Below are positions 5,616-28,196 of a DNA stretch of 31,021 nt, piece by piece; position 1 is the stretch's first letter; every line of letters begins with the position of its first letter. The DNA is from a virus. The position numbers were made by a program, and so were the translations under genes. The notes under the pieces were generated by a model that made no database searches, was not told the origin of the DNA, and worked only from the letters and a program-made list of their open reading frames with translations. The stretch is taken from positions 1 to 31,021 of IMG/VR virus record IMGVR_UViG_3300025141_000482; one strand, written 5' to 3'.

Positions 5616-5625
5616 CTAAATATCA
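5616..5625 (-). promoter_or_regulatory. Shared intergenic motif TGATATTTAG, copy 1
   Basis: The coding strand reads TGATATTTAG, 6 nt after the stop of the 596-residue gene and 42 nt before the ATG of the 232-residue gene. The identical 10-mer occurs in the only two other gaps longer than 50 nt (15350-15359 and 28187-28196). It may be a phage late promoter element or a processing site. It does not match the classical T4 late sequence TATAAATA on the coding strand, so the function is inferred from position and recurrence only. Confidence 0.5.
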
Positions 5626-5631
5626 CCACAC

Positions 5632-7422
5632 TCATGTTTTCGTAAACTGGCGGTTGTCATTGACTTTAATCTCTGCAACAGTTGATTTCTGCAGGTCTAA
5701 ATTTAGCACGTGCATCTTGTAGATGCCCTGATTTCTGTCTGTTACCAGCACATCATCGTCGCGTCCAGAGCTGGTTCTTGCCTCCAGGGCATCGGGCGTG
5801 AAGTAGACGTCCATTCTGGTATGTCCGCTGTCGAATATCGCGTCCTGCGAGAAACTATCCACCGCGATGTTGTCGTCTAGATCCGGATCCACAAAAAAAT
5901 TGGGATACTGCTTGGGGGCACCTGGTCGAGATATATTTTTTAGCGTAAGTCGGTTTCTCATCTTGTCGAATCCAACCTGTGTTTGTGATGAATAGCCTGA
6001 TGACAGTCCGTGCGCATCGACAGCGCAGACAGCATAAATAGCCGGCCTAGAGTCTCGATTGAACTTTTTATCTTCAAACATTGTCCAACCACCCACTTTT
6101 TTTATGATCAAGTCCTGCCTGATTGTTTCTGGGCGCAGAGTTCTTACCACCGAATCGTCAAAATCTATCTCACCAATGCATTGGAACGGTTCGTAGATGG
6201 AGAATCGCTTGAACACCTGAAAGAATTTTGTGTCCCTCGATCTTCCGGACGGAAACTGCCACGTGATGATGAGACCCCGTCCTCGGTTGTAATTGAACTT
6301 ATGGAACACCCCGTTGGGAGAGTCCGGAGGCTCAAACTCCTCTGTCAAAACGGCCACTGATTTTGAGGGTCTGGACGCAATCAGTGTCGCGATTCGGTAA
6401 TTTCTCCCTTCCTCGAACGGTTCCCTTGAGGCAACCACCGCATCGACTCGGTAAACCGTGCGCACCGAGTAGAAGTACTTGGATCCATACACAACTTGAC
6501 TGTCAAGATATCTTATATTATCCCTACCCTCGATCGGAAACACACGTGTCGACACCATTCTACCCGAAGGTGCCAGTTGTTTTCTAATCAGGAGATACCC
6601 CACAGTCTGCGCTCCTACAATTTGTGGTGTCAAATTGAGCTCCGGCTCCGGGCTAGTGTCAGGCATTGGTATAAAGGTTGGCTCCAGATCAGCTTCTGTG
6701 AGAACAGATGAATTTGCTCGAGGTTTAAAGTTGTCCGCAATCAACTGCGCCTTTTTTTGGATCTCAAACTTACTCAAGGGCGACACATCGTCTGCTCCCT
6801 GGACGGTGATGTCAAGAACTCGCTTATTGACAAGAGAGTTTAAAGAGAGCTGGGCGGCTGTGTCGAACATCGTTGCTGTGCTTTGTTTTGGGCGAAAATT
6901 CACCTTAAGGTCTTTGGCATTAAGGTAAGGCGTTATCAAGGACTGAATCATGCCCCTCTTCACGCCCAATAAATTTGCGATCGTCTTGGTCTGGTCTGAA
7001 GCAGAAAAGTCTATCTCTAACACTGCGCTCAGACTCTTGATCTTATCAGAAATTCGCGCAGACGCATCCGGATCGCTCTCACGAAACGCAGCGAACGCAT
7101 CATTGGTAATACTCTCCTCGGATGAAACATCGTCTAAGTCAAAATCAATCAATTTTAAATTGTTTTTGGCATCACCAAGATTTCCCATTTCAATTATCTG
7201 AGCGGGTTTAAAATTCACATCATTATAGCGGGGAACCTCAGATTTTAACGTGCCGGCCTTGATCAATCTCTGCGTCTGATTAATTGTGGTCGCACCCGGA
7301 ACCCGAAGATCCCCCTCACCGTTGATCCTCTCATCCGGCGTGAAAAAATTGTAGACGAACTCCGCCCTAATGTCTACCGGATCTGGAACGTCGACTATTG
7401 TGAACTGTCTACTTTGTTTCAT
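5632..7422 (-). CDS. Virion protein with fibronectin type III-like modules (596 residues)
   Basis: Residues about 1-245 are mixed helix and linker without a recognised fold. Residues about 255-350 and 362-485 each look like a fibronectin type III-like beta sandwich. The second is clearest: 'EPPDSPNG', 'GLIITWQFP', 'FFQVFKR', 'WTMFED', then 'AIYAVCAVDAHGLSSGYS', with the W and Y..AVDA positions typical of Fn3. Fn3-type modules on phage tails are usually weak surface-binding or spacer units. The start ATG overlaps the TGA of the 1282-residue gene (ATGA), so the two are translationally coupled. The 1020-residue protein two genes upstream carries related modules. Tail or fibre location is inferred from context. 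The Fn3 call rests on pattern reading and needs a profile search. Confidence 0.62.
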   Translation of the reverse strand: MKQSRQFTIVDVPDPVDIRAEFVYNFFTPDERINGEGDLRVPGATTINQTQRLIKAGTLKSEVPRYNDVNFKPAQIIEMGNLGDAKNNLKLIDFDLDDVSSEESITNDAFAAFRESDPDASARISDKIKSLSAVLEIDFSASDQTKTIANLLGVKRGMIQSLITPYLNAKDLKVNFRPKQSTATMFDTAAQLSLNSLVNKRVLDITVQGADDVSPLSKFEIQKKAQLIADNFKPRANSSVLTEADLEPTFIPMPDTSPEPELNLTPQIVGAQTVGYLLIRKQLAPSGRMVSTRVFPIEGRDNIRYLDSQVVYGSKYFYSVRTVYRVDAVVASREPFEEGRNYRIATLIASRPSKSVAVLTEEFEPPDSPNGVFHKFNYNRGRGLIITWQFPSGRSRDTKFFQVFKRFSIYEPFQCIGEIDFDDSVVRTLRPETIRQDLIIKKVGGWTMFEDKKFNRDSRPAIYAVCAVDAHGLSSGYSSQTQVGFDKMRNRLTLKNISRPGAPKQYPNFFVDPDLDDNIAVDSFSQDAIFDSGHTRMDVYFTPDALEARTSSGRDDDVLVTDRNQGIYKMHVLNLDLQKSTVAEIKVNDNRQFTKT

Positions 7423-10400
7423 TTTCTCACCAGCGGATCTGCAGGAACTACATTAATGGCGTACGAATTGACTGAAACTGTGCCCGGTGTCACATCTGAT
7501 TTAGTCAGACCGATGCTCAGTTGATTGTCTGTACTTATCTTTTTTCCGAGCTTCACCACCTCCTCTGCCTTCCCTGACATTGAGCGAAATTTGAACGCTT
7601 CAAACAAAAATCCCATCGTCTTGTCAAAATACGCCGGAGAGAAAACACGCTCCTCAATCAGTCCGTCGTGAAAGTAAATAGAATCAAAGATGTCATAAAA
7701 TAGCTCAGCAGTCGCGACGCTTATCTTTTGAGACTCAAAAGTTTGTCCATTGGCAATTTTTTTCACCTTGGACGAGGTGGTTTTCAACATCTCCAGCTCA
7801 GACAACCTGGTCGTGGTGGTCCCGCTCTTTGTTACCACAAATGACTGGTCAAAGGTCGACTCATCAATCTTGGCTGCAGAGCATATTTTTCTCGCTAGTG
7901 TTGCCGATCCAGCAGATCTCTTTGTGTAATCAATTTTAACCAAATTTTCCTCGAGTAGATCAGTACTTGACAGAACCGAAAAAGCTTTTCTCACTAAGTA
8001 GGAGAATACCTCATTGCTTAACGACTGCTGTGCCATTTCTCGAGAATCATCAGAATACTGTTTGATGAATTTTTCTCCGGTGACACCTGTCGTCAAGGTG
8101 GCTCTTTTGACAACGTCCGCGAAAGTCTGGGGTGGATTATCTTCAAATCCCTCAAAACTGCTGCTATCAATCAGATTGAGCACAAAAAAGTTTTTCGTGA
8201 CCTGGTCGTATTTTATGTCATCAAATACCCCGTCTCGCCCCACCTGCACAGCAGTAATTTGCTCAAAAATATTGGACGCATGCCCAGATGCAAGACGAAA
8301 TGCCGGCAAAAGTGTGTCGGAAATGTAATCACCAGGCAACCCAACCGTGCAAAAAATTAGATTGTCAGAGGCGGTCGACCCCATCTGCTTAAATGCCGGG
8401 ATCATACAGACAACTTCTCCTTCGGTCAATTTGGGAACTCTCTTACTCCGCTTAGACAGGGAGCTGTGATACCGATTGAGGCGTCTCTGGCTGATACTCA
8501 ATGAATAGTCACTTATCGACGTCAAATAGTCCTCACCAATTGGTTTGTTGGAGAAGTCTATTAGCGACTGCGCGAGATCTGTAGCTTTCTTTTCACCCCT
8601 CAGCATGGCAGCAAGATCGGATATGTTTCGAGTCTGCTGCTGAGTATGCTCAATGATCGCAGAGACAGATGTCAATGCTGCCATGGCAATATCTCTCTCG
8701 CGCGCGAGATCAAAAAAGAAATCCTGCATAGTCAAAAAGGAAAGTTCAGACCCATAGGAGCTAGCCGTTACAATAATATCCTCGGGGCTGCTGTCCAAAT
8801 CAGGAATTAAATTTTTGTCACCCACCCTGGTCGATAATGCACCAAAATTGTTTGCCTTCGATCCCTGAATTAGAAGCTTGAGAGCACGCGCGGCAAATCC
8901 CGCTTGACTGTCTGTTCCCACAAATGTCTTGATAGAAAATTTATTATGTGAAAATGGTGTCTTGAGCTTCATCTTCGGTGTAGAAAAGGAAAATCCCCAC
9001 TTGCTCTTTTTGGGCTTCTTCTTCGTGTCCTGTGTTTGCGCATTCACAAACATTGACACCAAATCAAGCATAGCCTCAAATAGCATTGAAAGCGACAGCG
9101 TGCCGTCGATCTGAGAGTTTCGTGTGAACCTTCCGGGAGTCAAAAATGTCGCGACGTCGTTCTCTGATTTTGAGAGACGCTTGGCCTCGTCGTGCATGTC
9201 AAGATAAATCCGGACAATTCTATTAAGAAGCGAGGACTCAGAGTCGTAAATGTCTTCAAAAAAATTCTCGGTCCATCGCGTCAGGTGCAGCGGATTTCCA
9301 GGAACACCCGACTCTGTGGGATAGGTTCTGAAAGCATCTAGTTTGTTATTTGCCGAATCATCCTCAAAATCAATTATTTTCTTCTTAATAAAATCACCGT
9401 CATCTGACGAGAATCTAATCGCATCCCGACTAAATTCGATATTTTCAGGGTTGTTCTCATCTGACTGATTTGAAGTCGCTGTAATCACGGAGGTTACAGG
9501 ATCTTCTTTGCCGGTTTTTATTGTGACAGTTGTCGATGTGGTTTTCTGCGAAGATTTATTCGCGGCAGCATCTGTTTTGTCAGAGTCAAAACCCTTTCCA
9601 GATAATTGGAGCAGCGCCTTTCGCGCCATCATTGACAACAAGAACCGCTTGACTACGTTGGCCCTTGAGCCGGGCGATGTGTCGTTCTTGCTCCCCTCTG
9701 CCAAAATTTTGAAGAGAGAGGTTTCCATTATATCGAGTTCTTTTCCTGCATCCTTGCTCACACCAAACTGGTCGAGAGAAGTTGACAATTCCTCCAGCAT
9801 TCTTGTGTAAAGACCGCGTGGTGTCAAAAGCACTGGTGTCTTATCCCTTAGATGAAGCTTCTTGTAGAAATTTAAACCTTGTTTGAACACATCATCGGCG
9901 CTGTCGATAGCCCCATCAAAAAGATTGACCTTGTTGTTGGTGGGATCTCTCGCCACAGACTTCATAAAAGTATCAAAAGAATTTAAAACACCCCCCCTTT
10001 CAACCACAAAATTGCCATCGAGCAAACACAGCCTTTTTGATCCTGTTTCAACAGCATCACCCTTATTTGAGACGAGCAAATAATCGATAAGACTGCCGCG
10101 GTGGTGTTGACCTGCTGTTGAACTTTCCACTGCACGCACACCCAAATAAGAGTCTACATACCCCCATTTATCACCTGTTCCCAGCGGGATGTCAGATCCA
10201 AAACGATTTCCAAGTGGTGTTCCGGAAAGACGCCCTAAACCCGCAGAAATCGCGTACTCGTTTGCCAACATTGTTACCAATGCCAGGGACCTTCTGTGTG
10301 CAGGAGCATGTAATTTCTTGTAAAAGTCTCTATTTACATAGGGCGCTTCATTATCAAACCCATACACGTAGTTCTGGCCGGCGTGGTTCTTCATTGAGAG

Positions 10401-11267
10401 AGTTTTCAACGTAGCTGGCTGTTGATTAACGCCCTTAGAATTCCTAAGACTGTCAGCAACTGTCCACCAACCGACCGGCACTGATACCAGGTCCATACCC
10501 AAAATTTCGGGCGTGTATCCGCGGAAGAGCGTCTGCGCGGCAAATTGCAAGGCTTGTGTTGTAAGCGCAGTGCGAGATTTTTGTTTAAGATTTTTGATGC
10601 TTGATTGCACACAGTGCCCCTCTATCAATGAGTAGGGGTCGGTTGCCATCGGCTGGTTAGCCAACAGAGGTTCAGGTTTGCCCAGATCATCAGCCGCCTG
10701 TCTCGCTATTGACGATATGCTCTCCCGCGCAGTGTCGGGTGAAAGAACTCTGTTTGTGTCCTTCAAAAAACGAAAAATTATATTCAACTGCTCGATTGTA
10801 TTCTGCGCATCCTGTGTCTGTTGCCTCAAACTAGCTTCTAACTGATCAAAAGCCTTCTCGTCCTCCCTGAGTATCACATCAAAAATTCTTGCCGCAAACT
10901 CTTGCGAGACTCTATCCTCCAGATACGCCTGGGTCACCGCGGCAGAAACTGGAGAATAGGGTTCCCCCAAAAAGTCAAGCGCCTTGAGTCCAAAGATGAC
11001 CAAGGGCTCCGACCGCTCCTTGTCAATTTTCGCCTCCTCGTTCGTTTTGGGCTGAGAGTTGGGCGTCTTAGATTCGCTCGACAAAACCAGAAACTGATCA
11101 TTCAGATCAACCGTTGCATCTCTGATAATGAGTGACACATTTTTGGGAGAGGCTTTTGCTACGACAGGAACAGACGCAACATTATCAACCAACCCTGTGG
11201 TCGTCTTGTTTACATTTGCCGCAATACTAGATTGTGATGAAATTTTGATATTAAAAAATCCAAACAT
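7419..11267 (-). CDS. Giant virion-associated protein of unknown function (1282 residues)
   Basis: I recognise no family. Features that can be seen: a low-complexity N-terminal 90 residues; a helical, coiled-coil-like stretch at about 100-175 ('REDEKAFDQLEASLRQQTQ'); a globular part with many aromatic residues at about 250-480; a polar linker near 570-640; a strongly basic segment near 745-780 ('KKKPKKSKWGF'); and a helical C-terminal half. There is no signal peptide, no membrane helix and no obvious hydrolase or peptidase motif. The start ATG follows GAAGGGAA. It lies between two Fn3-containing genes and overlaps the next gene by ATGA. It is too long to be a simple subunit; an extended tail or baseplate scaffold, or a protein delivered at infection, are possible. 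Assignment as a virion protein rests on context only. Confidence 0.5.
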   Translation of the reverse strand: MFGFFNIKISSQSSIAANVNKTTTGLVDNVASVPVVAKASPKNVSLIIRDATVDLNDQFLVLSSESKTPNSQPKTNEEAKIDKERSEPLVIFGLKALDFLGEPYSPVSAAVTQAYLEDRVSQEFAARIFDVILREDEKAFDQLEASLRQQTQDAQNTIEQLNIIFRFLKDTNRVLSPDTARESISSIARQAADDLGKPEPLLANQPMATDPYSLIEGHCVQSSIKNLKQKSRTALTTQALQFAAQTLFRGYTPEILGMDLVSVPVGWWTVADSLRNSKGVNQQPATLKTLSMKNHAGQNYVYGFDNEAPYVNRDFYKKLHAPAHRRSLALVTMLANEYAISAGLGRLSGTPLGNRFGSDIPLGTGDKWGYVDSYLGVRAVESSTAGQHHRGSLIDYLLVSNKGDAVETGSKRLCLLDGNFVVERGGVLNSFDTFMKSVARDPTNNKVNLFDGAIDSADDVFKQGLNFYKKLHLRDKTPVLLTPRGLYTRMLEELSTSLDQFGVSKDAGKELDIMETSLFKILAEGSKNDTSPGSRANVVKRFLLSMMARKALLQLSGKGFDSDKTDAAANKSSQKTTSTTVTIKTGKEDPVTSVITATSNQSDENNPENIEFSRDAIRFSSDDGDFIKKKIIDFEDDSANNKLDAFRTYPTESGVPGNPLHLTRWTENFFEDIYDSESSLLNRIVRIYLDMHDEAKRLSKSENDVATFLTPGRFTRNSQIDGTLSLSMLFEAMLDLVSMFVNAQTQDTKKKPKKSKWGFSFSTPKMKLKTPFSHNKFSIKTFVGTDSQAGFAARALKLLIQGSKANNFGALSTRVGDKNLIPDLDSSPEDIIVTASSYGSELSFLTMQDFFFDLARERDIAMAALTSVSAIIEHTQQQTRNISDLAAMLRGEKKATDLAQSLIDFSNKPIGEDYLTSISDYSLSISQRRLNRYHSSLSKRSKRVPKLTEGEVVCMIPAFKQMGSTASDNLIFCTVGLPGDYISDTLLPAFRLASGHASNIFEQITAVQVGRDGVFDDIKYDQVTKNFFVLNLIDSSSFEGFEDNPPQTFADVVKRATLTTGVTGEKFIKQYSDDSREMAQQSLSNEVFSYLVRKAFSVLSSTDLLEENLVKIDYTKRSAGSATLARKICSAAKIDESTFDQSFVVTKSGTTTTRLSELEMLKTTSSKVKKIANGQTFESQKISVATAELFYDIFDSIYFHDGLIEERVFSPAYFDKTMGFLFEAFKFRSMSGKAEEVVKLGKKISTDNQLSIGLTKSDVTPGTVSVNSYAINVVPADPLVRK

Positions 11268-11282
11268 GTTCCCTTCTCAGAA

Positions 11283-14200
11283 TTAGCCAAAAAGCATATC
11301 CTTTATCTCGTTCATACCTAAGTGCCCTGCACCCGTCTTGTTCGCAGAATTCGATACTTCGGCCTCAAATGTCTCCATATTCCAGTCAATAGTAAGTTGA
11401 TTTGCGGCAGAGTGCCAAGCTGACAACAACGATGCCTTGTCAATGCCGATCGCTGATGTGATTTTTCCATCAGAAACTTTCACCGTCGTTGGATCTATTT
11501 TTCCGGAATGTAACCCTTTTTTAATTAACGCACTCGGCTCTATAGAAGTCGATTCCAGCTGTGATATCTTGTTGTCTCCGCCTTTTCCGCTAAAACTTGG
11601 AAGATCGACCCTGTCCCAAGAAAAGATCTCAGCAAACTGATCTGGCATCTTCGGTTTCGCTTCGAGTAGTTGAGATGGCTGCGCCGACCACACTTTGTTG
11701 GACACACCCGGAGATGTCATAGGCGGCACAAGTGGATTCTGAAAGTTGATCGACTGTCCAATTGGTTGCACATAGTTCTTTCCTTTTCCGTAACTAAATA
11801 CCACACCCTCCAAAAGGTTCTCAGGCACCGAGTAAAGCTTCTCAGCATTTATCGATGGCGACTTCACCACCACATCGTCATCAAAACTCACGGCGCGCAC
11901 ACTGTAAGACTTCTCACCGGTTTCGCCGTAAAATCTATCATCCCTGTACCGATACAGCGCGGATCCTCTGCTGCAGGCGATAGCGCCCAAAAGTTGATCG
12001 CTACCATCGTATGTGCAGTAGATCAAAAAGTAGCTGACATTGCTCACATCTCCAGACACTCGCCAGGTCAGAGAACTGTACAGACTTTTTTCAGTAATTG
12101 TCATGTCCTCGATAATCGGCTCAGTCTTTGGAATTGCAACTCTGACAGCTAGCTCCTGGCCCACTTGTGATTCCAGCATCAGGCTCTCAATTGACCGGCC
12201 TTCGCGAACATCAAACTCAGGCGGCAAAACTCCCATTCTGCTGTATATCGCCCGAGCAAAACGTGACGCCAGGCGTTGAATCTCATCGCCGTATCGATTG
12301 ATCAAACCCACAGTCGACGCCTGCAAAAACACCTCGGGCTGCTGAAGACAAGTTTTAACAACGTACTCGTACCTACCGTTTGAAACGGGAGGCGGAAGCC
12401 CCAATTTCTGCCTTTTATCGGAATCATCGATAAATTTTCCAGCTGGAGTAATACCGAAGGACACTCTTCTTCCCGTATTGAGATTTATCCTCTCCACCAA
12501 AAACATCGTGAAAAATTTCGGTTTTAAATCGTCTTTTGACAGATTTGAAATAAATTGTGTATCTACACCGGCATCTCGAAGCGCTGTAGTCACAGTTTTG
12601 AAAAAATCTACTGTTGGCTCACTGAATATTTCAAAAGTCACAGTCGTGTTATTGTCTCCATCCTGGAGCGCTGTGGGGTCTGTTAGAGAGATCGAAAAGG
12701 GAATTTCTCCAGTGACAAATCTCCTGATAATTGTCTCGTCCTCATCTGAAATTATTTCTTCGCCCAAGCTTGCTAATCCAATCGTGCCTGTCCGATACGC
12801 GACAAAATATCGATAATGCCTTCCCAGCACAGCAGTTTCGTCCCTAAAATAAAAAGCATCCTTCTGGCCGTTAACAAAAACAGTGAGATCTCCCTCTATT
12901 GACAAAATTTCTTCCACAGACTCATCAAAACTTCCGGATTTGTGAAACTCCTGTCTAAGCAATCGAATCGTGAAGATATCGTCAGACAACGTATTAACTC
13001 TAATGTCCACCCCTGCGTTTTTATTAATCGCCCGAATAGCTACAGGAATCGACGCGGTGCGCAATGGATCACTCACATTCTTGAATGACGGAATGACAAT
13101 GCTTGAAAATTCTCCAATACTGCCGTCACCATTCACGACCGCGAATCGATAAATGGTCTTGTTTGGCAACACATTGTCCAAAAGATCCTCAAAAATAACA
13201 ATATTTGACTCCGGAGACTCAGAAAAGGACAGGTCTGTCACATCATCAACATATCTTGTTCCCACGTTTGAATTGGTGACAATTCTAAACACTCTCACAA
13301 CACGAAGAGTGGGATCAGTTCGTTTGAGCACAATCGAGACAGAAGCCATCTTAGCATCTATTAGCGAAACGTCAGGCGGCTCTGGATTCGCAAGAAGCTC
13401 GTTCAATTCTCTTCCATGATTGATTTCCACAATCGTCTTGGTGAAGATGCATCGACTTCGTGGGGCACCAATCGAGGAGATCGACGCATAAAGTTTCTCC
13501 GATCCCTGAACTTCTCCCTTGCCCAAATACAGTGTCTGTACGTACTCTCTTTTCACGGGCAGCAGTTCAGCAAAACTGACACTAGACCTGCGACTTCTGG
13601 ATTCGCTTCTTGACACCGCAGCCCGCACAAGTGGTCGATCCTGTTTTCCTCTTCTAGCGCTACGATTCGTCCTTCTAAGAGAAGCCAGACTTTTTCTTGT
13701 TCGTGGAGCTCTCGCCCCGGCCGCGCTTGTGATCGAATTATCGTGAGAGAAAAAATTATTGCTAGATCCCAAAGAAATTGCACTGAATGGTGTCACTGCA
13801 GAAAAATTGCCAGCAGCTGATACCTGTGCCGGATCCTCATTGTTCGATTTCAAATCCTTGGAGATCTGCTTGAAGGTCTTGCCCGGCAAAATATTAGAGA
13901 GGTTCGGAATTGACAAGACGCTTGGGAGAGTCATCATTGAGGTGTTGGCAACCAAAAGCTTCTTCAAGCTATTTGGTGGCGCGGTGACGTTGAAAGCATT
14001 AAAAAGATTCTGTCCTCCAATATTGAAGACCACATCTTGGGCAGTATCAAATCTTACTTCGAACGTCTCGATCGCATCATCTGATGAAAGATTGTTAGTT
14101 CGAGGATTGCGCGTAAAAATTTCAAATCTCACACCGACGACACCCAAACGAGATGCACGTCGCTGATTCACCAAAAATTTTGTCTTGTACTCAAAAACAC

Positions 14201-14354: not shown

Positions 14355-15344
14355 CTAGTCAATTACCACTGTGAACAGACACAAAAATGTCTCTGCACCA
14401 AAAGAATCCCGCTGTATCTTTCCGACAAATAGAACGCGTTTTCCCGGACTGTGAGGATCATCGTCCTCAAATTCACCAAAATCGACAACAGACAACTTCT
14501 CAACTCCAGAAACATCCTGCTCAAAAAATTGCACCACAATATTATTAGATCGGCTCGTCTGGGCGAACTCAAACCTCTGCATCGATTTCTGCTTCAAAGA
14601 AATCATCAACTCGTCCAGCGTTAGCGTCGTCTTCCACGGTTCTCCTGGACGCGTTTTTCCCCACTTCTCATTCAAACGCGGATAATTTCCGATCGGTTCT
14701 CCACGGTCCTCTCCGGGGCGAGGTGCGTTCTCCGGGGGGAGGTATTTAAAGTTGGCAAAATCAGAGAATCGACGGTCGCTAAAAATGCTCGGAAGATCGT
14801 CCGGATTCACATGCCCGGACTGTCCACCCCGCAAGTACTGTGTGTCGTCATCTATGGAAAAGGTTCCTGTGGTGGGCGACAGAACGACATTCTGGTACAA
14901 TGAGAAATCATCAATCGTTCCCACAATTCTCTGATCAGTAAAATTCTTTGTGATTCCCTCCAGCACGAGAGAAAGCGCAGGTCTAAGATCCGATCCGGTC
15001 AGACCTACGGGGCTCTTGATGAATCCAACCTGCATCGTTCCGGAAGCGATCGTGCCTCCGACCACCTCGAAATCGGATGTTCTAAACGGGCGCATGCTGG
15101 TTCCCGCCTCCAGTTCCGGCACGATCACATCCTGGTATCGATTGTGGGCCTCAAAAAATATTCTACTAGAAGCATCAGCAGCGAGCTTTGGCTGTGTCAA
15201 GCTTCCGGAAGTCTCATAGAAGGTGTGCAGATCGGTGAAAGTGGCGTAGCGGATTTTGAGCTCACCCACACCTGCCTGGCGCTTTCCCTCCTGGGTCACC
15301 ACGAAATCGAGCACGCGCTCTTTGTTGTTCAATATTCCAGCCAT
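14355..15344 (-). CDS. Virion structural protein, 329 residues
   Basis: The opening 'RVLDFVVTQEGKRQAGVGEL' followed by 'KIRYATFTD' parallels the N-terminus of the 232-residue protein at 4875-5573, so both appear to use one small N-terminal module, perhaps for docking on a common partner. The remainder is beta-rich with 'FSIDDDTQYLRGGQSG' and a proline-rich stretch near 200-225. No enzyme motif is visible. The ATG is preceded only 5 nt upstream by the CTAAATATCA (coding TGATATTTAG) motif; the only Shine-Dalgarno-like bases, AGGGA, partly overlap it. If the motif is a promoter, the transcript would have almost no leader. The gene follows the largest non-coding gap of the window (105 nt). Virion role is inferred from context. 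Confidence 0.58.
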   Translation of the reverse strand: MAGILNNKERVLDFVVTQEGKRQAGVGELKIRYATFTDLHTFYETSGSLTQPKLAADASSRIFFEAHNRYQDVIVPELEAGTSMRPFRTSDFEVVGGTIASGTMQVGFIKSPVGLTGSDLRPALSLVLEGITKNFTDQRIVGTIDDFSLYQNVVLSPTTGTFSIDDDTQYLRGGQSGHVNPDDLPSIFSDRRFSDFANFKYLPPENAPRPGEDRGEPIGNYPRLNEKWGKTRPGEPWKTTLTLDELMISLKQKSMQRFEFAQTSRSNNIVVQFFEQDVSGVEKLSVVDFGEFEDDDPHSPGKRVLFVGKIQRDSFGAETFLCLFTVVID

Positions 15345-15449
15345 TGTCCCTAAATATCAGCGCACGGAAGTTCAGGAGATACCCCGCTTGTAACTATTTT
15401 TTATCACTCCAAGCTGGTGTTGGGTGGTGAGATACTTCTTTGTCTCATT
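15345..15449 (-). other. Largest intergenic gap (105 nt)
   Basis: This is the longest non-coding stretch of the window. Besides the motif at 15350-15359 it holds, on the coding strand, an imperfect hairpin (CACCCAA, seven-base loop, TTGGAGTG, one bulge) around 15398-15421 followed by ATAAAAAATAG. Because the hairpin is followed by A-rich and not T-rich sequence, it is not a standard intrinsic terminator for the leftward transcript. I see no reading frame worth calling here. Confidence 0.4.
15350..15359 (-). promoter_or_regulatory. Shared intergenic motif TGATATTTAG, copy 2
   Basis: Coding-strand TGATATTTAG lies 5 nt before the ATG of the 329-residue gene. It is identical to the copies at 5616 and 28187. 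Upstream of it this copy shares the extra 8-mer CTTCCGTG with the copy at 28187, with a slightly different offset. The closeness to the start codon would give a near-leaderless mRNA if this were a promoter element, so a translational or processing role is also possible. Confidence 0.5.
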
Positions 15450-16115
15450 TTAATGTCCTCCACTCAAGTCTGCTGACTGATCCATAAAATTGATCAGGTA
15501 CCAATTTGTACCGTCGAATATCCAGGTCGTGACATCACCGTTAGCCGTTGTTATATTAGTCGTCCCACCCTTTAAATTAGTGCTGGTTACATCGTAAACA
15601 ACTGCAGCCGTTGAAATGACATTTATTATTTGCCCAGCAACTCCGCCGTCAAACATTGTCAGTGTCTGAGAGCTGGCATGTGTTTTAAATAAATTTCCTG
15701 TGGCAACTGACGGGGTTGTGTCAGAACTACCAAATGTGACAAATGTCTCTGATGGGCCACTAAATGCCGCAGCGCCTGCAACGTGTAGCATACAATTTGG
15801 CCCTGCTGTCCCAATACCTACTCTATCAGTGACTGTCGTCAACCTCACAACAGTACCGTCGTCAGTCCATCCCGCCGCGGCCTCCAGCAGGTTGCCGTTG
15901 AAGTAGATTTTTCCGTCCACGGCGTAAAGCAGGTTCGTGATCTGGCTTGGTGCGGTGTCGAGGTTGGAAAGCTTGACACCGTGATTGAACTCCTTGCTCG
16001 CGAGACCGACCTGTATTCCGTTGGGAAAGATCACATTTTGGACCTCGTTGTTGTTGCCGCTGCGCAGCACCAGCTTGTCCTCTTGTCGCAGCTGTGACTG
16101 TTTAATCTTGGGCAT
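15450..16115 (-). CDS. Short tail-fibre-like protein (221 residues)
   Basis: The N-terminal ~80 residues ('QLRQEDKLVLRSGNNNEVQN', 'LLYAVDGKIYFNGNLLEAA') look like an attachment and beta-repeat segment. Residues 97-112 carry the 'DRVGIGTAGPNCMLHVAG' pattern common in trimeric phage fibre shafts. The C-terminal part ('GGVAGQIINVIS', 'LKGGTTNITTANGDVTTWIF', 'DGTNWYLIN') resembles the small beta-structured tip domains seen on phage fibre and neck proteins. There is no intramolecular chaperone or S74 peptidase domain, so it is short for a fibre. A strong AAGGAG site precedes the ATG. The 3' two-thirds of the gene looks more AT-rich than its 5' third, which hints at a swapped distal half. Function as a receptor-contacting fibre is inferred. 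Confidence 0.65.
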   Translation of the reverse strand: MPKIKQSQLRQEDKLVLRSGNNNEVQNVIFPNGIQVGLASKEFNHGVKLSNLDTAPSQITNLLYAVDGKIYFNGNLLEAAAGWTDDGTVVRLTTVTDRVGIGTAGPNCMLHVAGAAAFSGPSETFVTFGSSDTTPSVATGNLFKTHASSQTLTMFDGGVAGQIINVISTAAVVYDVTSTNLKGGTTNITTANGDVTTWIFDGTNWYLINFMDQSADLSGGH

Positions 16116-19746: not shown

Positions 19747-19747
19747 C

Positions 19748-20755: not shown

Positions 20756-23700
20756 TAGAACTTCCTCAGATCACCGGTGATCAGTTGCATTAGTATTACA
20801 GGTTTTCCACCCCTGTTCTCCTCGCCCAGGTACATGTCGTAGTATTTGTAGGTAAATTTGGCCCTCTCCAGCACGTGTGGCTCGATCACGTAGCTCGTTC
20901 CCTGAAACTTGGAATCGCTGGGCAACATCTGCTCGAGAAGATCGCCAATGGTCTCGTCGAAGAACTTGAAAAATTCGAAGAACGACTGCAAATTGACCTT
21001 ATCTGTGAGGCGATTGAAGTAAATTCGGCGGAGATTTCTGAGGTGGGGGTACTCGTACGCGAAGACCAGCTCCGGGCTGCCGATCAAATTGTCGAGCGAC
21101 TCTAGCGTCGCAAAAATATTCATGATGTCCTCGTTCAGCGCCTGCACGACAGAAATCTCGATCGATACCCGCTTGTCGTCCTGCGGTTCTTCCGCCTGTG
21201 GTATCTCATGGAGGGGCGCCAGGGCGGCACCAAATTTTTCCGCTGTCTGATCGTTCAGGTAGCTTCTAATTCTGATCTTGTTCGGATTCTCACCCGACTG
21301 AAAATTGGGGGACAGAACCTCAAAATCGAATCTCTCAGGCTTGATCACCTCTTTGCTGGCTTGAAAACCACTTCCAGAGAACAGAAGATTGTTCTGGGAA
21401 AAATCGAACAAAGCGATGTTGCCCGACGCGTCGGATTTCGTCACCGTCTGGTCGATTGAAACGTCAACACGCAACCGCTCAAAGGAACCGCTCGCATTTG
21501 TGACGAAATTAAAGTTAATCTCGGGATCGATCACCCCCAATGACTTGAAATTTCGAGCATGAGTTTTGGTCTCATCGACTGTCAGGCCCTTGCTCCAAAA
21601 TCGTAATGTCGAAACTTTGCCCGTGAATGTCGAAATTCTGGCACGGGAATCGACATTGGTCGTGTCATTGAGAAAAACTGACTCGGTTGTGTCAAAGCTC
21701 TGGCTTCCCACAACCACAAATGTACCGCTAGTATTATAAGAAGCGGAAGCCCCCGAACCGCTGATACTTTGCAGGGCATTGTTGGCAGATGTACCCTCGT
21801 AAAAATAGCTCGAGGTTGTTAAAAACTCTTCCAATCCGCCCGGGGTGAATTTTCCGGCGCGCAGAAAATAGGACGAGGACACATAAGAAGAGATAAGATC
21901 GTGTCTGTCGCGTCCAAAAGCAATACTCCACTTTCGACCGTCAAAAATATCAACGCCAGTCATGTACATCGATAGCGTCGGTGCAGACGAACCACTCACG
22001 GGTCGACCGTAGAGAACCAGGCTACCAGTCGTCGAAAGAGACGAGCCCGGCTTTATGGCCACGAGGTTGAACAAAACACCATGTCCGACATTCGGTGCAG
22101 TGGTTCCTGTGACGTGAATTCTCGCCAGGCTCTGTGTCAAAGGATGTGTGTGTTTGTTGTCAAATTTATAAATACCCTCAACTGTCCAAGACCCAGAAGT
22201 GAAGAGGCCATCATTGGGATCGCTCGATCCCGTTATGGGACCGTAGGCGCCGCTAACGTAAGCACGCTCACCGAGTACACCAGCGGGTTGTGGCACACCT
22301 GGCGCAACTCTGGATCCTGACAGATATGGACCCGCTAAAAACGGTCTGCTAGAGTCTATTCCCTGAGGGTTTAGTGTCCCGGGAGTGTTGAGCGTTCCGC
22401 TCATATCCAACATTGCAGCGATCTCGTGGCGTCTAATAAAGGAGTCCCCCAAATTTCTCTGCTTAGAACCTCCAAACTCCCTGATTCTGATTGGTCCGTC
22501 CGGATTAATACCCATATTTGCCAGAATGGACCTCAACGACATGTGTGTGCCTCTCGTGGAAAAGATGAAAGGTAGATCTGAAAAAATTCGTCTCCACAGT
22601 GTATTCTGAACCGCACGCAGCGCCGTCGTCGAGCGTCGATTTTTTCGAATCTCCGTGCCATCAAGCAGCTGATTTAACGAGGCGTTGGCGTAAAAATTTG
22701 GTAGCGCTATACCGTAGTATCTGGAAAGCCACGGTAACAGCTGATCCGAGATGGCATCCTGTGAGAGGACATCAACCTTCAACAGACGCTTGAATTCGTC
22801 GATAAACATTTTTAGTTCATCAAATGTTTCAGCAAACGTGTAAAGCAAGCCTGCGATAATCTGTGGCTGCCCCACTCGGGCGCCCCCGGGCTGATCGTAG
22901 CGTCTAGCTAACGACTCACCTATGTCGGCCTTCTCTGTCTCGAATCCCTCAGCGTCCGACGCCTCCTTGAAGTAGTGCGAGGGAACCAATCGAGTCACCA
23001 AATTGGGATTACTGTAATCATAATTGCTGGCGGAAGTCAACAATTCATCGTTGAGATCTGTCACACCCTCAAATGATGGAAAAAGCACCGTCGAAACTAT
23101 AGCCGTCTCTCCATTGACGGGCGCCTGGCCGTACGTGCCAGTATTTCTAAGAGACATCGAAAAATTCTGTACGCTAGTGTGAAGCCCGTTTCCACTATGA
23201 TCAAGCACAAGATCTGATCCATTGCCTGCAAAGGTACCAGACGGCTCGTTGAATCTGTACAAAAGTTTAAGCTTTTTCTGGGCAAAAACATCAAGAAATC
23301 TCTGTTGCTGGATCTCCTGCTGTGTTCTTCCGGTGTGCCACACTCTGAATTCGTCCATCGCTCCCGAAAGTGTCTCCTGGGGTGTAAAAGTATGGTAGCC
23401 AAAGGCGTGAGCGGATCCGCTTCCCAGCGTCATTGGAGACGTCTTAAAATCAATCTGTCCCAACGCGCCGAAATCACTGGTCGCGACCTTCATACCGTTG
23501 CGATACAGCAGAATCTGACCCGGCCCGGCCGATCGATCAAAAACAGTAGCACAGTGCTCAAACTGACCTTTTGTCAGTTCCATCGAGGCAGAGAGAGTCA
23601 ATGATCCAGACCTTATCATCACAAGATAATCCACTACACCCAGCGGGCTTGCTTTGTCTGCTGAGGAGGAGAGGAAGAGCGAGATTCCGTCATTTCCATT

Positions 23701-24285
23701 CAGCTTCTGCGCGATGACCTGACTGTCGTTGTTCGATCCGCTGGGAGAATTCACATAGAACTCGAACGTGAAAGGATTGGTTCCTGGATCGAGAACACTC
23801 CCCCCGGTTGGATTCTTTGAAAGCTTAGGTGAGTGTGAACCTTTGAAGTCATTGATGCTGATATAGGTTCCGGGTGACGACGGCGACGAGGACCCGCTGA
23901 AAGCCAGATAACCAATGTGCTGTGGGAACTGATCAAGCACATACTTCTCATATCCCGTAAGACCGTCAACAAAGCTGTAAAATTCAGTTTTGGTGCCGTC
24001 AAAAGGCAAGCTATTTATGATCTTGTCAAAAGCCTTTTGGGTCTTTGCTTCCGCAGAATTGAAAAATGTATGGGACGCAAAATCCGACCAGTCGACAAAA
24101 AGCTGCTGTGTGCTTTTGAGCGGAGCGCCTGGGGAATCATATCTAAACGAGCCTGTCAGAATTGTCTGCGTGTTCTCGGCATCGTTCAGAGTCATATTTC
24201 TGACAGGTGCGGCCGACCTTTTATTTCTTAGAATGCCAGGTTTGAAAAGCAGATTGTCTGCTGGCGTATTAGGCTCTCGTGACAT
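20755..24285 (-). CDS. Baseplate wedge protein (gp7 / P2 gpI-like) with two LamG-type regions
   Basis: In this 1176-residue protein, residues about 450-606 match the pattern of P2 gpI/T4 gp7-type wedge proteins: a helical part ('FAETFDELKMFIDEFKRLL', 'ISDQLLPWLSRYYGI') and the typical 'IFSTRGTHMSLRSILANMGI' followed by 'PIRIREFGG'. Around this core sit lectin-like sandwiches: about 125-330 ('PFTFEFYVNSP', 'QFEHCATVFDR', 'LLYRNGMKVA', 'GAMDEFRVWHTGRTQQE') and about 690-915 ('SWTVEGIYKF', 'KVSTLRFWSKGLTVDE'). A helical C-terminal part (1035-1176) ends in 'VLERAKFTYKYYDMYLGEE'. gp7 and gpI join gp6/J in the wedge, consistent with gp6 lying two genes upstream. It begins 3 nt after the previous stop. 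The wedge assignment is from motif reading, not search; the LamG regions are clearer for the first than the second. Confidence 0.66.
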   Translation of the reverse strand: MSREPNTPADNLLFKPGILRNKRSAAPVRNMTLNDAENTQTILTGSFRYDSPGAPLKSTQQLFVDWSDFASHTFFNSAEAKTQKAFDKIINSLPFDGTKTEFYSFVDGLTGYEKYVLDQFPQHIGYLAFSGSSSPSSPGTYISINDFKGSHSPKLSKNPTGGSVLDPGTNPFTFEFYVNSPSGSNNDSQVIAQKLNGNDGISLFLSSSADKASPLGVVDYLVMIRSGSLTLSASMELTKGQFEHCATVFDRSAGPGQILLYRNGMKVATSDFGALGQIDFKTSPMTLGSGSAHAFGYHTFTPQETLSGAMDEFRVWHTGRTQQEIQQQRFLDVFAQKKLKLLYRFNEPSGTFAGNGSDLVLDHSGNGLHTSVQNFSMSLRNTGTYGQAPVNGETAIVSTVLFPSFEGVTDLNDELLTSASNYDYSNPNLVTRLVPSHYFKEASDAEGFETEKADIGESLARRYDQPGGARVGQPQIIAGLLYTFAETFDELKMFIDEFKRLLKVDVLSQDAISDQLLPWLSRYYGIALPNFYANASLNQLLDGTEIRKNRRSTTALRAVQNTLWRRIFSDLPFIFSTRGTHMSLRSILANMGINPDGPIRIREFGGSKQRNLGDSFIRRHEIAAMLDMSGTLNTPGTLNPQGIDSSRPFLAGPYLSGSRVAPGVPQPAGVLGERAYVSGAYGPITGSSDPNDGLFTSGSWTVEGIYKFDNKHTHPLTQSLARIHVTGTTAPNVGHGVLFNLVAIKPGSSLSTTGSLVLYGRPVSGSSAPTLSMYMTGVDIFDGRKWSIAFGRDRHDLISSYVSSSYFLRAGKFTPGGLEEFLTTSSYFYEGTSANNALQSISGSGASASYNTSGTFVVVGSQSFDTTESVFLNDTTNVDSRARISTFTGKVSTLRFWSKGLTVDETKTHARNFKSLGVIDPEINFNFVTNASGSFERLRVDVSIDQTVTKSDASGNIALFDFSQNNLLFSGSGFQASKEVIKPERFDFEVLSPNFQSGENPNKIRIRSYLNDQTAEKFGAALAPLHEIPQAEEPQDDKRVSIEISVVQALNEDIMNIFATLESLDNLIGSPELVFAYEYPHLRNLRRIYFNRLTDKVNLQSFFEFFKFFDETIGDLLEQMLPSDSKFQGTSYVIEPHVLERAKFTYKYYDMYLGEENRGGKPVILMQLITGDLRKF

Positions 24286-24288
24286 TCC

Positions 24289-25833
24289 TTAATCCTTGAC
24301 TTCAAAAATCGCGTCTCTATTTTTGACCAGGTAACTCACCCCTCTATCGACAATATAGAAATCGAAAGCATAGGACCTTCCGGTCATCAGTGCCTGCATC
24401 TTGAAATCAAAGAACATTCCGTCCGCATCCGTCGAGACACGAGTCGAGTCGTTGACGTCGTCATACGACAGCATAATCTTCCCCGTCACCCTGTCCACGA
24501 CTTGGTAATACACCTTGTCATAAATTACTGACTTCAACTTATAGGGCGTCTTGACAGGTTGGTTGTTCTCGGCAATAAGGTCTCTTCCGAATATTCTAAA
24601 ACGCACAGTGTCATTCTTGTGATATGCCCTGGTTGCATTCGTCAGCGTGATTAGCGGTTCTCTTGAGATGAATTCTCCGGCGCTTCTTTGCGCTCTTTTG
24701 ATGACTACGCTGCCAGTGTGATAAGCCACCTTGCCGTCGATTGATTTCCAGAAAGTTGTAAAAGTGACCTCTCCCTTTTCAGCAACAAGCTGTGATATAT
24801 TTCGTGTTGTAGCATACGACGAGGTATTAGTTGATGCCAACGCAAATGATGCCGAATAAACACCCGACACAATGTGACCATCAGTGCCCTGGGTGTGTTG
24901 GCTGCCTGTCACATAGAAGTTGAACAGACCCTTATTGAGATTCAAAACAAAGCAATTGTTGCCTTTTATTTCTGTCAGGGAAGATCCGCTAACAAGATTG
25001 GCGAGGGCGGATCGATTGTAGCTGTTAAGAAACAATGATCCGCTCGCGTCAAAATAGAAATTCGCATGATGATCCTGAATTGAGTCATCAAATCTTACCA
25101 CAATTCGTGGTCGAAGAAGGGGGTTGGACACATGTCGTGATGCAAATCTCTTCACAAATCGAGATTTCGTATCGGTCTCTTCCGATCCCGTAAAGGACAA
25201 TCTAAAGCCCTTGTCGGGAAATTGACTTGCCACAGTTGCAGACACAAGTGTCGTTATGTCTATCTCGAGATCCTCAGTACCCTCGGTAAATGTCTGCGTC
25301 TTTTCAAATGAGACAGTACCGTTTCCATCGATCAGATTACCCGATGCGATGTAGTCGATATCATCCGAGTCGAGCAGGCCTCCCCGGTTCGCGCCGGACA
25401 CGTACCACAGGTTATTTTGAGTCGTATAGGATGCTGTGATAAAGTTAGAAACATCAACGTCATTAAATTTTCCTGTGTCTCGCCCTACGCCCTCGTTGAA
25501 CGATTGTGACAGCGGAAAAACCGACAGTGTGAAATTTCTCGGAACAGCATGACCGGTCATGATATCCTTGAGTTCGAGCGTCGCTTTGAAATTTGAACTG
25601 TTGAGATCGAGAATACTGCCCGTCAGAGCTGTTATCGGAGTCAAATCAAAATTAATCAAAGCACGAGAGAGCTCTGTCTGTTTTCCGAGGCTGCCCAACT
25701 TCGTCTCATCATAAAGTTTGAAAAGGTCTAGGGTAGACGCGCGACCAACATTGGCATCCCGAACCCTGGTTTGTTCATTGATAATTTTATCCGTGATGTA
25801 AGTGTCTGCGCTAGCAGAGCAAACGATTATCAT
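24289..25833 (-). CDS. Virion protein with DNRLRE-like domain (514 residues)
   Basis: Residues about 5-250 follow the pattern of DNRLRE/CBM-like beta sandwiches found in surface-associated proteins: 'SADTYITDKI', a gap, 'ANVGRASTLDLFKLYDET', then 'ELSRALINFDLTPI', and a closing 'RPRIVVRFDDS'. These domains are linked to polysaccharide binding or cell-surface attachment. The C-terminal half (about 255-514) is also beta-rich: 'FYFDASGSLFLNS', 'GEVTFTTFWKSIDGKVAYHT', 'RSYAFDFYIVDRGVSYLV'. No signal peptide is evident despite an apolar first few residues. The ATG follows GAGG by 6 nt. Placed between gp6 and the gp7-like wedge, it is likely a baseplate component or attachment platform. The domain call is by pattern only. 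Confidence 0.62.
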   Translation of the reverse strand: MIIVCSASADTYITDKIINEQTRVRDANVGRASTLDLFKLYDETKLGSLGKQTELSRALINFDLTPITALTGSILDLNSSNFKATLELKDIMTGHAVPRNFTLSVFPLSQSFNEGVGRDTGKFNDVDVSNFITASYTTQNNLWYVSGANRGGLLDSDDIDYIASGNLIDGNGTVSFEKTQTFTEGTEDLEIDITTLVSATVASQFPDKGFRLSFTGSEETDTKSRFVKRFASRHVSNPLLRPRIVVRFDDSIQDHHANFYFDASGSLFLNSYNRSALANLVSGSSLTEIKGNNCFVLNLNKGLFNFYVTGSQHTQGTDGHIVSGVYSASFALASTNTSSYATTRNISQLVAEKGEVTFTTFWKSIDGKVAYHTGSVVIKRAQRSAGEFISREPLITLTNATRAYHKNDTVRFRIFGRDLIAENNQPVKTPYKLKSVIYDKVYYQVVDRVTGKIMLSYDDVNDSTRVSTDADGMFFDFKMQALMTGRSYAFDFYIVDRGVSYLVKNRDAIFEVKD

Positions 25834-25840
25834 TTCAACC

Positions 25841-27685
25841 TCAGACTGCTGTTCCTATAATATCAAAATCAGAGTATTTCAGCTCAAAAATTGAGCCTCT
25901 GTCGGGCTGAATCAGACCCTTGGTCTGGCTCTGCTTAAAATCAAATGTAGCAGTATTGTACTCTCTGTCCTCGATCTGCCCGATACGAGGAAACACTTGC
26001 AAATCTACCAGCGAAATTACGAAGTTAGAATTGATGATCACATTGACGATATCGTCCACAACTATGGGCTGATCGATGTTGAAAAATTTTCTATCTAATG
26101 TGCTCGCGATTCTCGAATTCACTGTTTGAATCACTTGAGTCTTGGCCGCGTTCTCAGACACATAGACGCTGTACTTCACGGCAAAATTAATCACCTTTGT
26201 ATCCAAAATATCTATTGCATCACCCACAAGACGCAATTCGTTCAAATATGTTTTTAAGTTTTTCTTGAGAGAGTCGGGCGAGACAGCCAAACTCCCCTCA
26301 TCATCCCTAGACACAACATAAAGCAGGGCAGACATTGGATTGACAGGATTGTCCACTACTGCTGCTCTATAGATTCTTCCAAATTCACTGGGTAGCGTGT
26401 AAATTCTAGCCAACAGATCCTCACGCGACACAACTCTTCTCTGCGACTTCCTCGCCGATGTTATTCGTGTTTTCAAATCGTCTAGTGTGGGTGCAGAATC
26501 TCCTCCGCTGGCAGGCTCTGGGTTGGTCATCAGAATTGACTGTCGCACAGACAGCGCATCGGCCGCTGAAGGGCTTCTTCTAAACGACAGGGAAAGTTTA
26601 TCCAGCTGCTCCACTTGATTAGCGGAAACATTATGATTGAGACCGCCTCCAAAACGATAGCGAATCGAAAGTGTGGTATCCTTGGGGGATATGCCCAGCG
26701 TCTGTGTTTCCAAAAGTGACTGTGGATCAATATTAAATCGCGCCACAGTTGTCTTTCCGAACAGACTAAGCGCAAGCTCACTGGGGTCTGGAACGATATC
26801 ATCATCCAGAGTGTCCGCATTTCCCGATCCAAATCGCAATGTGGCCAGCTGAGTCACTGGATCGTATTTCTTGATAAAACGATAGGGGGCAGCAATAACA
26901 GTGACGTAGTAGGGCACGGCGGCATTGTCTGGGGCAGCATTTTTTGTTTTGAGCATCACCGTGTCCTCGCTAAGCGAGGTGACCGGGTAGTAGGTATTAA
27001 GCTCGGTATCTGATACGGAGAGTATTGCAGAAATGTTCTTCTCCACAAGAGTTATCTCTCTAAAGGCGACAAAAGCATTTGGCACTGATATTTCCTCAGT
27101 TTTCTCTTCCCCGCTCACCGCAGCCACCGATCTTGTCACAGTAAAGGTTGCGGGGATGCCGTCGGCTCTAGTTGTTGATATCACAAAATCGGCTAAAAAA
27201 TTTCCATCCTCGTCCTGTTCAGAAAAGTCCAAATCATCGACCGTCGTGAAAGGAATTCCCGAAAATGACGACACCTGTGTACCGGCCAATACTACAGGCA
27301 TTGCCGATCTTTTGGGTAGATACACATTGTTAACAGACTGTGACGGCACAGTGAACTGAAAATTCAGAGAAACGGAAGCCGGCGCGGCCCCCACAATATT
27401 TACACCCGCATTATTCAAGTGTGTAATGATGTTCCCAGGTTCAACAGCGCGTGCAGGATCCAGCTCTCGAAAAGCGTGATCGAGGTAAAAACTAAGTGAA
27501 TCTCCAACAGTTGCAACAAAATCGAGAAACATTCCTCCCACAGACGGTTCCGAGAAATCCTGAATTTTGTCAGGAAAGTAAGTGCGTGCGGAATCGAGAA
27601 GCTGTGATCTAATTGACTCGAAGTCTCTCGCCGTAAATGATCTGTTCTCTTCCTTTTTTATCTTCTTTTTAACCTGGAATGCCAT
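25841..27685 (-). CDS. gp6: Baseplate wedge protein gp6 (J-like)
   Basis: This 614-residue protein has the diagnostic start of the gp6/J family: 'SFTARDFESIRSQLLDSAR' then 'FSEPSVGGMFLDFVATVGD' and 'LSFYLDHAFRELDPARAVEP'. The following region holds the beta-rich J-type domain ('RYRFGGGLNHN', 'RRVVSREDLLARIYTLPSEF'), and the C-terminus includes 'VINFAVKYSVYVSENAAKTQ' and the oligomerisation-like 'LDRKFFNIDQPIVVDDIVN'. In T4 gp6 dimers form the inner ring of the baseplate and bind gp25, gp53 and gp7. Its length is close to T4 gp6 (660). The ATG begins 1 nt after the gp25 stop, with GGGGGA as ribosome site. The order gp25 then gp6 is classical for contractile injection systems, which adds confidence. 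Confidence 0.9.
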   Translation of the reverse strand: MAFQVKKKIKKEENRSFTARDFESIRSQLLDSARTYFPDKIQDFSEPSVGGMFLDFVATVGDSLSFYLDHAFRELDPARAVEPGNIITHLNNAGVNIVGAAPASVSLNFQFTVPSQSVNNVYLPKRSAMPVVLAGTQVSSFSGIPFTTVDDLDFSEQDEDGNFLADFVISTTRADGIPATFTVTRSVAAVSGEEKTEEISVPNAFVAFREITLVEKNISAILSVSDTELNTYYPVTSLSEDTVMLKTKNAAPDNAAVPYYVTVIAAPYRFIKKYDPVTQLATLRFGSGNADTLDDDIVPDPSELALSLFGKTTVARFNIDPQSLLETQTLGISPKDTTLSIRYRFGGGLNHNVSANQVEQLDKLSLSFRRSPSAADALSVRQSILMTNPEPASGGDSAPTLDDLKTRITSARKSQRRVVSREDLLARIYTLPSEFGRIYRAAVVDNPVNPMSALLYVVSRDDEGSLAVSPDSLKKNLKTYLNELRLVGDAIDILDTKVINFAVKYSVYVSENAAKTQVIQTVNSRIASTLDRKFFNIDQPIVVDDIVNVIINSNFVISLVDLQVFPRIGQIEDREYNTATFDFKQSQTKGLIQPDRGSIFELKYSDFDIIGTAV

Positions 27686-27686
27686 T

Positions 27687-28172
27687 TTATCCCCCTACTA
27701 AGATGACAGCTTCCACAGCCTGATCTGTCAGGTTCAAATCTGAAACCGAATAAGTAACTCTCACCACACTTCTAATCACATTGCCGTCCTCTGAATTGTC
27801 AACTTTGGGCTCAAATGTTTCGAGAGTGATAAAGGGCATGTACTTGTCCACTGCTGCTGAAATTCTTCTTGCAGCCTCACTGTCGATGTCCTCGGCGGTC
27901 ATCTCCATAGCCAGCGGCAACAAGTTCGCCCCGAAATCTCCCAACATCAGCCGTTCCCCACGATTAGTCGCAATTAAATTTCTAAGATTGTCTCTAATCT
28001 GTGTGCCCAAATCATAGGACATATTGAACATTGTATTTCCCGTCGGAGCGAACAACATAGGTGTCCTAATTCCAATTGGATTCTTGATCGCAACATCATC
28101 AAGATTATCCTCATAAGCGGTCTGAAGCTGGCCCACCGACTTAAAGTCGTAGACCTTTCTTACTTGGGGCAC
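27687..28172 (-). CDS. gp25: Baseplate wedge protein gp25
   Basis: This 161-residue protein carries the gp25/GPW signature near residues 56-85: 'GTQIRDNLRNLIATNRGERL' followed by 'MLGDFGANLLPL', corresponding to the conserved GER..M.P.FG block of gp25 proteins. The usual Pro is Gly here. It ends with 'IRSVVRVTYSV', the usual beta hairpin. gp25 is a sheath-initiator protein that links the wedge to the tail tube and sheath. The start is a GTG (coding GTGCCCCAAGTA) with a strong GGAGGTG site 4-8 nt upstream; no ATG alternative exists nearby. The CTAAATATCA motif sits 14 nt before the GTG, and gp6 follows at once. Family assignment is firm. Confidence 0.93.
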   Translation of the reverse strand: MPQVRKVYDFKSVGQLQTAYEDNLDDVAIKNPIGIRTPMLFAPTGNTMFNMSYDLGTQIRDNLRNLIATNRGERLMLGDFGANLLPLAMEMTAEDIDSEAARRISAAVDKYMPFITLETFEPKVDNSEDGNVIRSVVRVTYSVSDLNLTDQAVEAVILVGG

Positions 28173-28186
28173 TTTTCACCTCCCGA

Positions 28187-28196
28187 CTAAATATCA
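28187..28196 (-). promoter_or_regulatory. Shared intergenic motif TGATATTTAG, copy 3
   Basis: Coding-strand TGATATTTAG lies in the 70-nt gap upstream of gp25, 14 nt before its GTG and just ahead of the GGAGG site. It is identical to the copies at 5616 and 15350. With the copy at 15350 it shares the upstream 8-mer CTTCCGTG. If it is a promoter element it would start gp25, gp6 and the following wedge genes as a unit. The rest of the gap holds no other feature I can support. Confidence 0.5.

Follow-up and report, generated by a model that had tools for sequence, protein, structure and literature searches.

In phage T4 the late promoter carries the box TATAAATA and is used together with gp55, gp33 and gp45; residues H95 and T99 of the late sigma factor gp55 contact positions -9 and -8 (PMC7892883). 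The corresponding late box of Aeromonas phage Aeh1 is CTAAATA, in which positions -13 and -12 vary and AAATA is kept (PMC1524935, PMC2988020). This box begins at -12, which places its last A at -6 (PMC1524935). For phages CBB and GAP32 a late motif ATAAATA and a gp55-like sigma factor have been described, and here the T4 AA is kept at -9/-8 (PMC5259590). For the late promoters of phiKZ and AR9 (TATG; AACA-6N-TA/G) the reader is a multisubunit RNA polymerase of the phage (PMC5312081). Most jumbo phages have no RNA polymerase of their own, and their sigma factors are believed to direct the host polymerase to phage-specific promoters; this combination of sigma factors and host polymerase is found in group 2 jumbo phages (PMC13282480, PMC7824862). 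Ma-LMM01 was considered as a precedent for the present locus and rejected, as it lacks gp55 and its promoters are of the host type (PMC5780444). A literature search combining TATTTATA with phage and promoter returned no phage late promoter precedent by title.

Here we describe a repeated element in a stretch of viral DNA of 31,021 nt (the window). We argue that its three copies are late promoters of a jumbo phage which point in the coding direction and are diverged relatives of the T4 late promoter, a reading to which we give a probability of roughly 85%. The window probably belongs to a jumbo-phage lineage, since contigs of 284, 245 and 241 kb are among its relatives. Near-identical phages were not found in the annotated collections searched, and tblastn with the 596-aa protein gave no matches. 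One contig (L010) overlaps the last 7.8 kb of the window at 99.87% identity and reaches 3.8 kb further.

The 10-mer CTAAATATCA, which reads TGATATTTAG on the coding strand, has exactly three copies in the 31,021 bases, all on the plus strand (Table 1 gives the coding direction). Dinucleotide shuffles contained 0.02 copies on average and none reached three. Each gap longer than 50 nt holds one copy (5574-5631, 58 nt; 15345-15449, 105 nt; 28173-28242, 70 nt; 233 nt in sum) and there is none elsewhere in the window; a small gene occupies the apparent gap at 28807-29082. When all 10-mers were checked, CTAAATATCA and its reverse complement proved to be the only ones common to the three gaps. The annotated starts lie 42, 5 and 14 nt from the copies at 5616, 15350 and 28187. 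An initial annotation had reported the three exact copies, their confinement to the only gaps above 50 nt (about 230 nt in total), these distances and a very low likelihood of chance, and all of this held up. The count of one-mismatch forms that it had proposed yields four further sites in the window, each within genes, and the resulting set of seven is above the 1.33 expected by chance. It had also pointed out that CTTCCGTG adjoins the motif at 15350 and 28187. The sequence is indeed present at both sites, but the spacing is unequal (CTTCCGTGcgcTGATATTTAG versus CTTCCGTGATATTTAG) and diverged relatives do not keep it. For these two reasons CTTCCGTG is probably incidental, and we rejected it as an upstream element.

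Table 1. Predicted promoter elements and transcription units in the window
Feature	Position	Strand	Basis
Predicted late promoter element TGATATTTAG before gp25 gene	28187..28196	-	Exact match; conserved in relatives
Predicted late promoter element before 329-aa gene	15350..15359	-	Exact match; similar element in orthologues
Predicted late promoter element before 232-aa gene	5616..5625	-	Exact match; elements in G012, G004, G006
gp25-like baseplate wedge gene, first after 28187 element	27687..28172	-	Pfam GPW_gp25 6.8e-8; phrog_43 9e-6
gp6/baseplate J-like wedge gene	25841..27685	-	phrog_219 1.2e-7
Remainder of first predicted unit: large tail/fibre genes of 514, 1176, 335, 1205 aa	16129..25833	-	ORFs
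221-aa gene, last in first predicted unit	15450..16115	-	ORF
329-aa gene, first in second predicted unit	14355..15344	-	ORF; orthologues
Remainder of second predicted unit: 1020, 1282, 596 aa	5632..14345	-	ORFs
Third predicted unit: genes of 232, 434, 830 aa, then RuvC-like resolvase	443..5573	-	ORFs

In the proposed arrangement each of three structural-gene transcription units would have one promoter, directed to the minus-strand genes and consisting of a single -10-like box, GATATTTAG, without a -35. With the T4 register, the predicted transcription start lies 6 nt downstream of the last A in TATTTA. The predicted +1 then falls near 28182 for the first unit (leader of ~10 nt with GAGGTG) and near 5611 for the third (leader of ~38 nt with TGAGGAG). 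At the 15350 element the core ends 6 nt before the ATG, a Shine-Dalgarno sequence is missing and the predicted +1 is near 15345, so that the mRNA would be essentially leaderless. Two of the tail/fibre genes contain lectin-like domains (Laminin_G_3, 4.6e-13 and 2.3e-15), the resolvase at 443-1036 matches phrog_159 (8.8e-18), and the window also holds part of a primase gene.

Several other features of the window were recorded. The neighbours upstream of gp25 (28243-28806 and ~28815-29081, both minus strand) share a repeat of ~45 residues around SRDxGMxDGADSDxII, which is present twice in the former gene and once in the latter. An 8-bp perfect inverted repeat, GTTTACCC...GGGTAAAC, with a 17-nt loop (28251-28283, minus strand) lies at the 3' end of the gene that precedes gp25 and has no T run after it. 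A 14-codon ORF, MRQRSISPPNTSLE, lies inside the longest gap (15404-15448, minus strand), with GGAGG a few nt upstream, and overlaps the end of the 221-aa gene.

The element is kept at orthologous sites. Before gp25, GATATTTAG is present in L010-L014, L016, L020 and G012 (= L015), and (A/G)ATACTTAAT in L017-L019; distant relatives that keep the element share 48-54% gp25 identity. Orthologues of the 329-aa protein align from residue 1 (70% identity in L004, 61% in G012) and have a similar element in the same place before the same N-terminus: GGATACTTAGgatagttATG in L004 and TGATAATTAGatagtgtaATG in G012, with the box forms GATACTTAG and GATAATTAG, respectively. Before the 232-aa orthologue we find GATATTTAC in G012 (76% identity), ATATTTAG in G004 (43%) and GTATTTAC in G006 (37%). 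Some orthologues are without the motif, namely that of the 232-aa gene in L004, and also L005 and L006.

The genome-wide distribution was followed in the relatives. In these the 0-60 nt ahead of genes are enriched in the element on the coding strand. In the 284-kb relative G012 the 9-mer GATATTTAG occurs 13 times on the main gene strand, which holds 315 of the 355 called ORFs, and not once on the opposite strand. By our reading, 12 of these 13 copies are intergenic, cover the stop codon of the gene in front or stand shortly before a start; the intergenic share of this genome is 5.1%. Many copies spread inside genes, the pattern that the initial annotation had named as contradicting its proposal, were looked for in G012 and not seen, and the check it had suggested on strand and late genes found the element on the coding strand upstream of late genes. 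With no preset motif, the top words before G012 genes are ATATTTA, ATACTTA and GATATTTA, the core GATAYTTA being the most enriched sequence. The same count yields (A/C)TATTTA in G004 and CTAGTTAC/CTATTTAC in G006, and on T4, as a control, it recovers TATAAATA.

Upstream enrichment was also compared between coding sense and reverse complement for all sixteen words of the form TANNTA. TATTTA was observed 28 times against 3.5 expected in G012, 40 against 4.7 in G004 and 25 against 1.7 in G020, and TAGTTA 17 times against 0.3 in G006; the T4 control gave TAAATA (33 against 8.1). Coding-sense TATTTA or TAGTTA is favoured in seven family genomes (G012, G004, G006, G018, G019, G020 and G021), and TA(T/C/G)TTA before genes is shared by these related phages, though in G018 the coding sense is barely above the reverse complement; G018 and G022 are weak or ambiguous through short length or AT-richness. 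The initial remark that the motif is unlike the T4 late box agrees with the enrichment of TA(T/C/G)TTA in the family and of TAAATA in T4. Logos and an upstream scan revealed no -35 or second conserved upstream block. For Microcystis phage Mel-JY01 neither the word count nor the TANNTA test gave a clear motif. The 365-kb relative G018 (L160-L178) has very strong upstream words of the GCTTGACTTT type, which probably represent -35 boxes of the host type belonging to early genes.

Sites of the form ATATTTAGG in Flavobacterium phage immuto first seemed to represent a shared motif. They were set aside and read as Bacteroidetes host promoters: most have GTTG at a fixed upstream distance and small early-type genes downstream. 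Bacteroidetes host promoters have the form TTG / TAnnTTTG, with the TTG ~20 nt upstream of the box. Such a TTG is present in immuto; the boxes of G012 have none at this fixed spacing.

Another observation concerns the genes downstream. In G012, which has T4-type portal, sheath and Ad2 genes, the box precedes the portal (5e-71), two tail sheaths (7e-58, 9e-30), the head-tail adaptor Ad2 (3e-11), an endolysin (3e-46) and gp25. Where a gene downstream of the box can be clearly assigned, it is a late gene; many others are without known function. A second class of sites in the same genome consists of TATAAT, often with TTGTGTAA ~17 nt upstream, before genes for DNA polymerase (4e-228), a recombinase/helicase-like protein, a clamp-loader-like protein and a nuclease. 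An example is found upstream of L022:442-4068 (minus strand), where (T)TGTGTAA stands ~17 nt before TATAAT(A) in this class of DNA-metabolism genes. Perhaps these are early or middle promoters with a phage-specific -35.

The distance to the start codon was counted for 1325 ATG starts in the family genomes and the window. In 11 cases in all the motif stops 0-4 nt short of the ATG, in 22 it ends 5 nt and in 25 it ends 6 nt before it, after which the counts tail off; the reverse complement is flat and has no peak at 5-6 nt. T4 has no class of sites at such short spacing. With the last A of the box at -6, as in Aeh1, a spacing of 5 nt would put +1 on the A of the ATG. Since the pile-up at 5-6 nt coincides with the T4-register start, we predict that many late mRNAs, including one starting near 15345, are leaderless or have a 1-nt leader; starts were called mechanically, and single leaderless calls may be wrong. 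A Shine-Dalgarno sequence is present in 1 of the 71 genes with the motif 4-8 nt from the ATG, where the short spacing itself leaves scant room for one.

The initial annotation had named a divergent late promoter, a processing site and an antisense promoter as candidates. Of this, the late promoter is supported and its divergent orientation is not: the element is enriched on the coding strand, and the sharp spacing of 5-6 nt is explained by a promoter in the coding direction and by none of the three candidates as named. A processing site or a translation signal in the 5' leader would be strand-specific and upstream of starts, as observed, and some copies do abut the start codon. The distance to the start, however, ranges from 5 to ~40 nt, unlike that of a translation signal, the lower limit of 5 nt is easier to reconcile with a start of transcription than with cleavage, and most sites in G012 and the window also have a Shine-Dalgarno sequence. 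We therefore give such an RNA-level element the smallest chance of all. A T4-like promoter on the plus strand, which would drive transcription away from the genes, has a slim chance as well. It would draw on the box CTAAATA, which the initial annotation ascribed to cyanophages and which is actually the late box of Aeh1 (PMC1524935, PMC2988020), and on TATTTATA, the form in some relatives, being the reverse complement of T4 TATAAATA. Yet coding-strand TATTTA/TAGTTA is far above coding-strand TAAATA in G012, G006, G020 and G021, the 5-6 nt cutoff and the peak before the ATG are confined to the coding-strand form, and the GATACTTAG variants of G012 leave no Aeh1 box on the opposite strand.

A slightly better, though still very small, chance goes to a host sigma-70-type promoter with an extended -10 (TGnTATAAT-like) that needs no phage factor. 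All three window copies start with TG, and TATTTA shares TAT with TATAAT. Against this, the TG is not kept in G012 and there is no -35. The window contains about as many sigma-70-like sites as shuffled sequence, with none in the gaps, and the separate TATAAT class before DNA-metabolism genes in G012 shows that there are two classes. Late promoters in the coding direction are thus the preferred reading. What was computed is the exact motif, its conservation at orthologous sites, orientation, spacing, the association with late genes and the finding that this phage also carries a sigma-fold gene; promoter activity, start sites and the pairing of sigma factor and box are what we infer from these sequence data.

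The box would most likely be read on the non-template strand by a gp55-like phage sigma factor on the host RNA polymerase. A gp55 search (phrog_234, late sigma) found one candidate each in G012 (5.4e-7; 1.3e-5 in a second search), G005, G006 and G004. A homologue of 241 aa, 71% identical to that of G012, is encoded at L010:3021-3746, 48 nt past the right end of the window and a few kb upstream of gp25, a position that it also has in G012 and immuto. Relatives are present on more than 60 contigs, and the core G-x-x-A-F-x-Y-F is invariant when 34 members are aligned. Homologues annotated as hypothetical are found in immuto (L130:19992-20690) and Mel-JY01 (L137:8764-9534). The L010 protein alone has no PHROG match up to E 0.1, and its tie to gp55 consequently rests on its relatives, the profile comparison and the fold. 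The family profile matches the gp55 profile over region 2 (78.8% probability, E 1.7e-5). Since it found no match among PDB sequences, a fold comparison was used. The AlphaFold model (pLDDT 83) has a further helical C-terminal half. It matches sigma factors, and sigmaE region 2 gives the nearest of the compact matches (Z 9.5-9.9, rmsd 2.4-2.5 over 89-91 residues), helical models often getting middling Z. Among these is a structure in complex with the -10 strand (Z 9.5, 2.4 A, 91 residues). The best PDB E-value by Foldseek is 0.013, and gp55 itself is absent among the structural matches listed. By these comparisons the protein is a distant gp55 homologue, not a close gp55. The sigma factor encoded on L010 probably reads the box, a pairing made by association. 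In the profile alignment the positions of H95 and T99 are F and N or S, and T4 Y97, which stacks on -12, corresponds to a conserved Y. This fits a joint change of the sigma residues aligned with the gp55 contacts to -9/-8 and of the promoter at -9/-8.

Searches for a gp45-like clamp and a bacterial beta clamp (phrog_223 and PF02768, respectively) gave none, although a diverged clamp could escape them. The RNA polymerase beta-subunit domain PF00562 is absent in five family genomes and present in 14 of 14 controls; split phage subunits could escape this search. The single-subunit RNA polymerase domain PF00940 had no match, and the controls gave none either. The missing beta domain appears in line with group 2 jumbo phages. 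A wider picture, which we offer tentatively and at somewhat less than even odds, is a widespread lineage without RNA polymerase in which a diverged gp55-like sigma factor would direct late transcription from TA(T/C/G)TTA, with starts often at the start codon, a partly leaderless late proteome and no recognisable gp45-type clamp.

The analysis supplies a candidate promoter sequence, a probable reader sigma factor and a testable register for a widespread lineage (>60 contigs), and it touches proteins of cultured Flavobacterium and Microcystis phages that have so far been annotated as hypothetical. In related genomes it can be used for operon and late-gene calling, correction of gene starts and prediction of leaderless late mRNAs. 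The lineage can further serve as a natural series for comparison with T4, from which it differs both in sigma residues and at promoter positions -9/-8.

With phiKZ and AR9 the shared trait is a short late box in a jumbo phage, whereas those phages have multisubunit RNA polymerases and PF00562 was not found in the five family genomes searched here. The likeness to CBB and GAP32 goes further, as it includes jumbo phages with T4-like structural genes, a gp55-like sigma factor and a single late box, but the box there keeps AA. With Aeh1 the present phages share a gp55-type system with a diverged box; here -9/-8 vary, and the Aeh1 resemblance of the window motif itself is on the opposite strand. 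The T4 late promoter is matched in its single -10-like box without a -35, its TAnnTA register, its position before virion and lysis genes and a phage-coded gp55-like sigma factor with a region-2 domain. Differences concern the box, which is not TATAAATA and has YT (or GT) at -9/-8 instead of AA, the longer sigma factor (241 aa) with its extra helical C-terminal half, the many sites ending 5-6 nt from the ATG against mostly 12-30 nt in T4, and the gp45 homologue, which was not found with phrog_223. Judged by sequence, the element would work like a T4 late promoter with a diverged box and is not a TATAAATA promoter.
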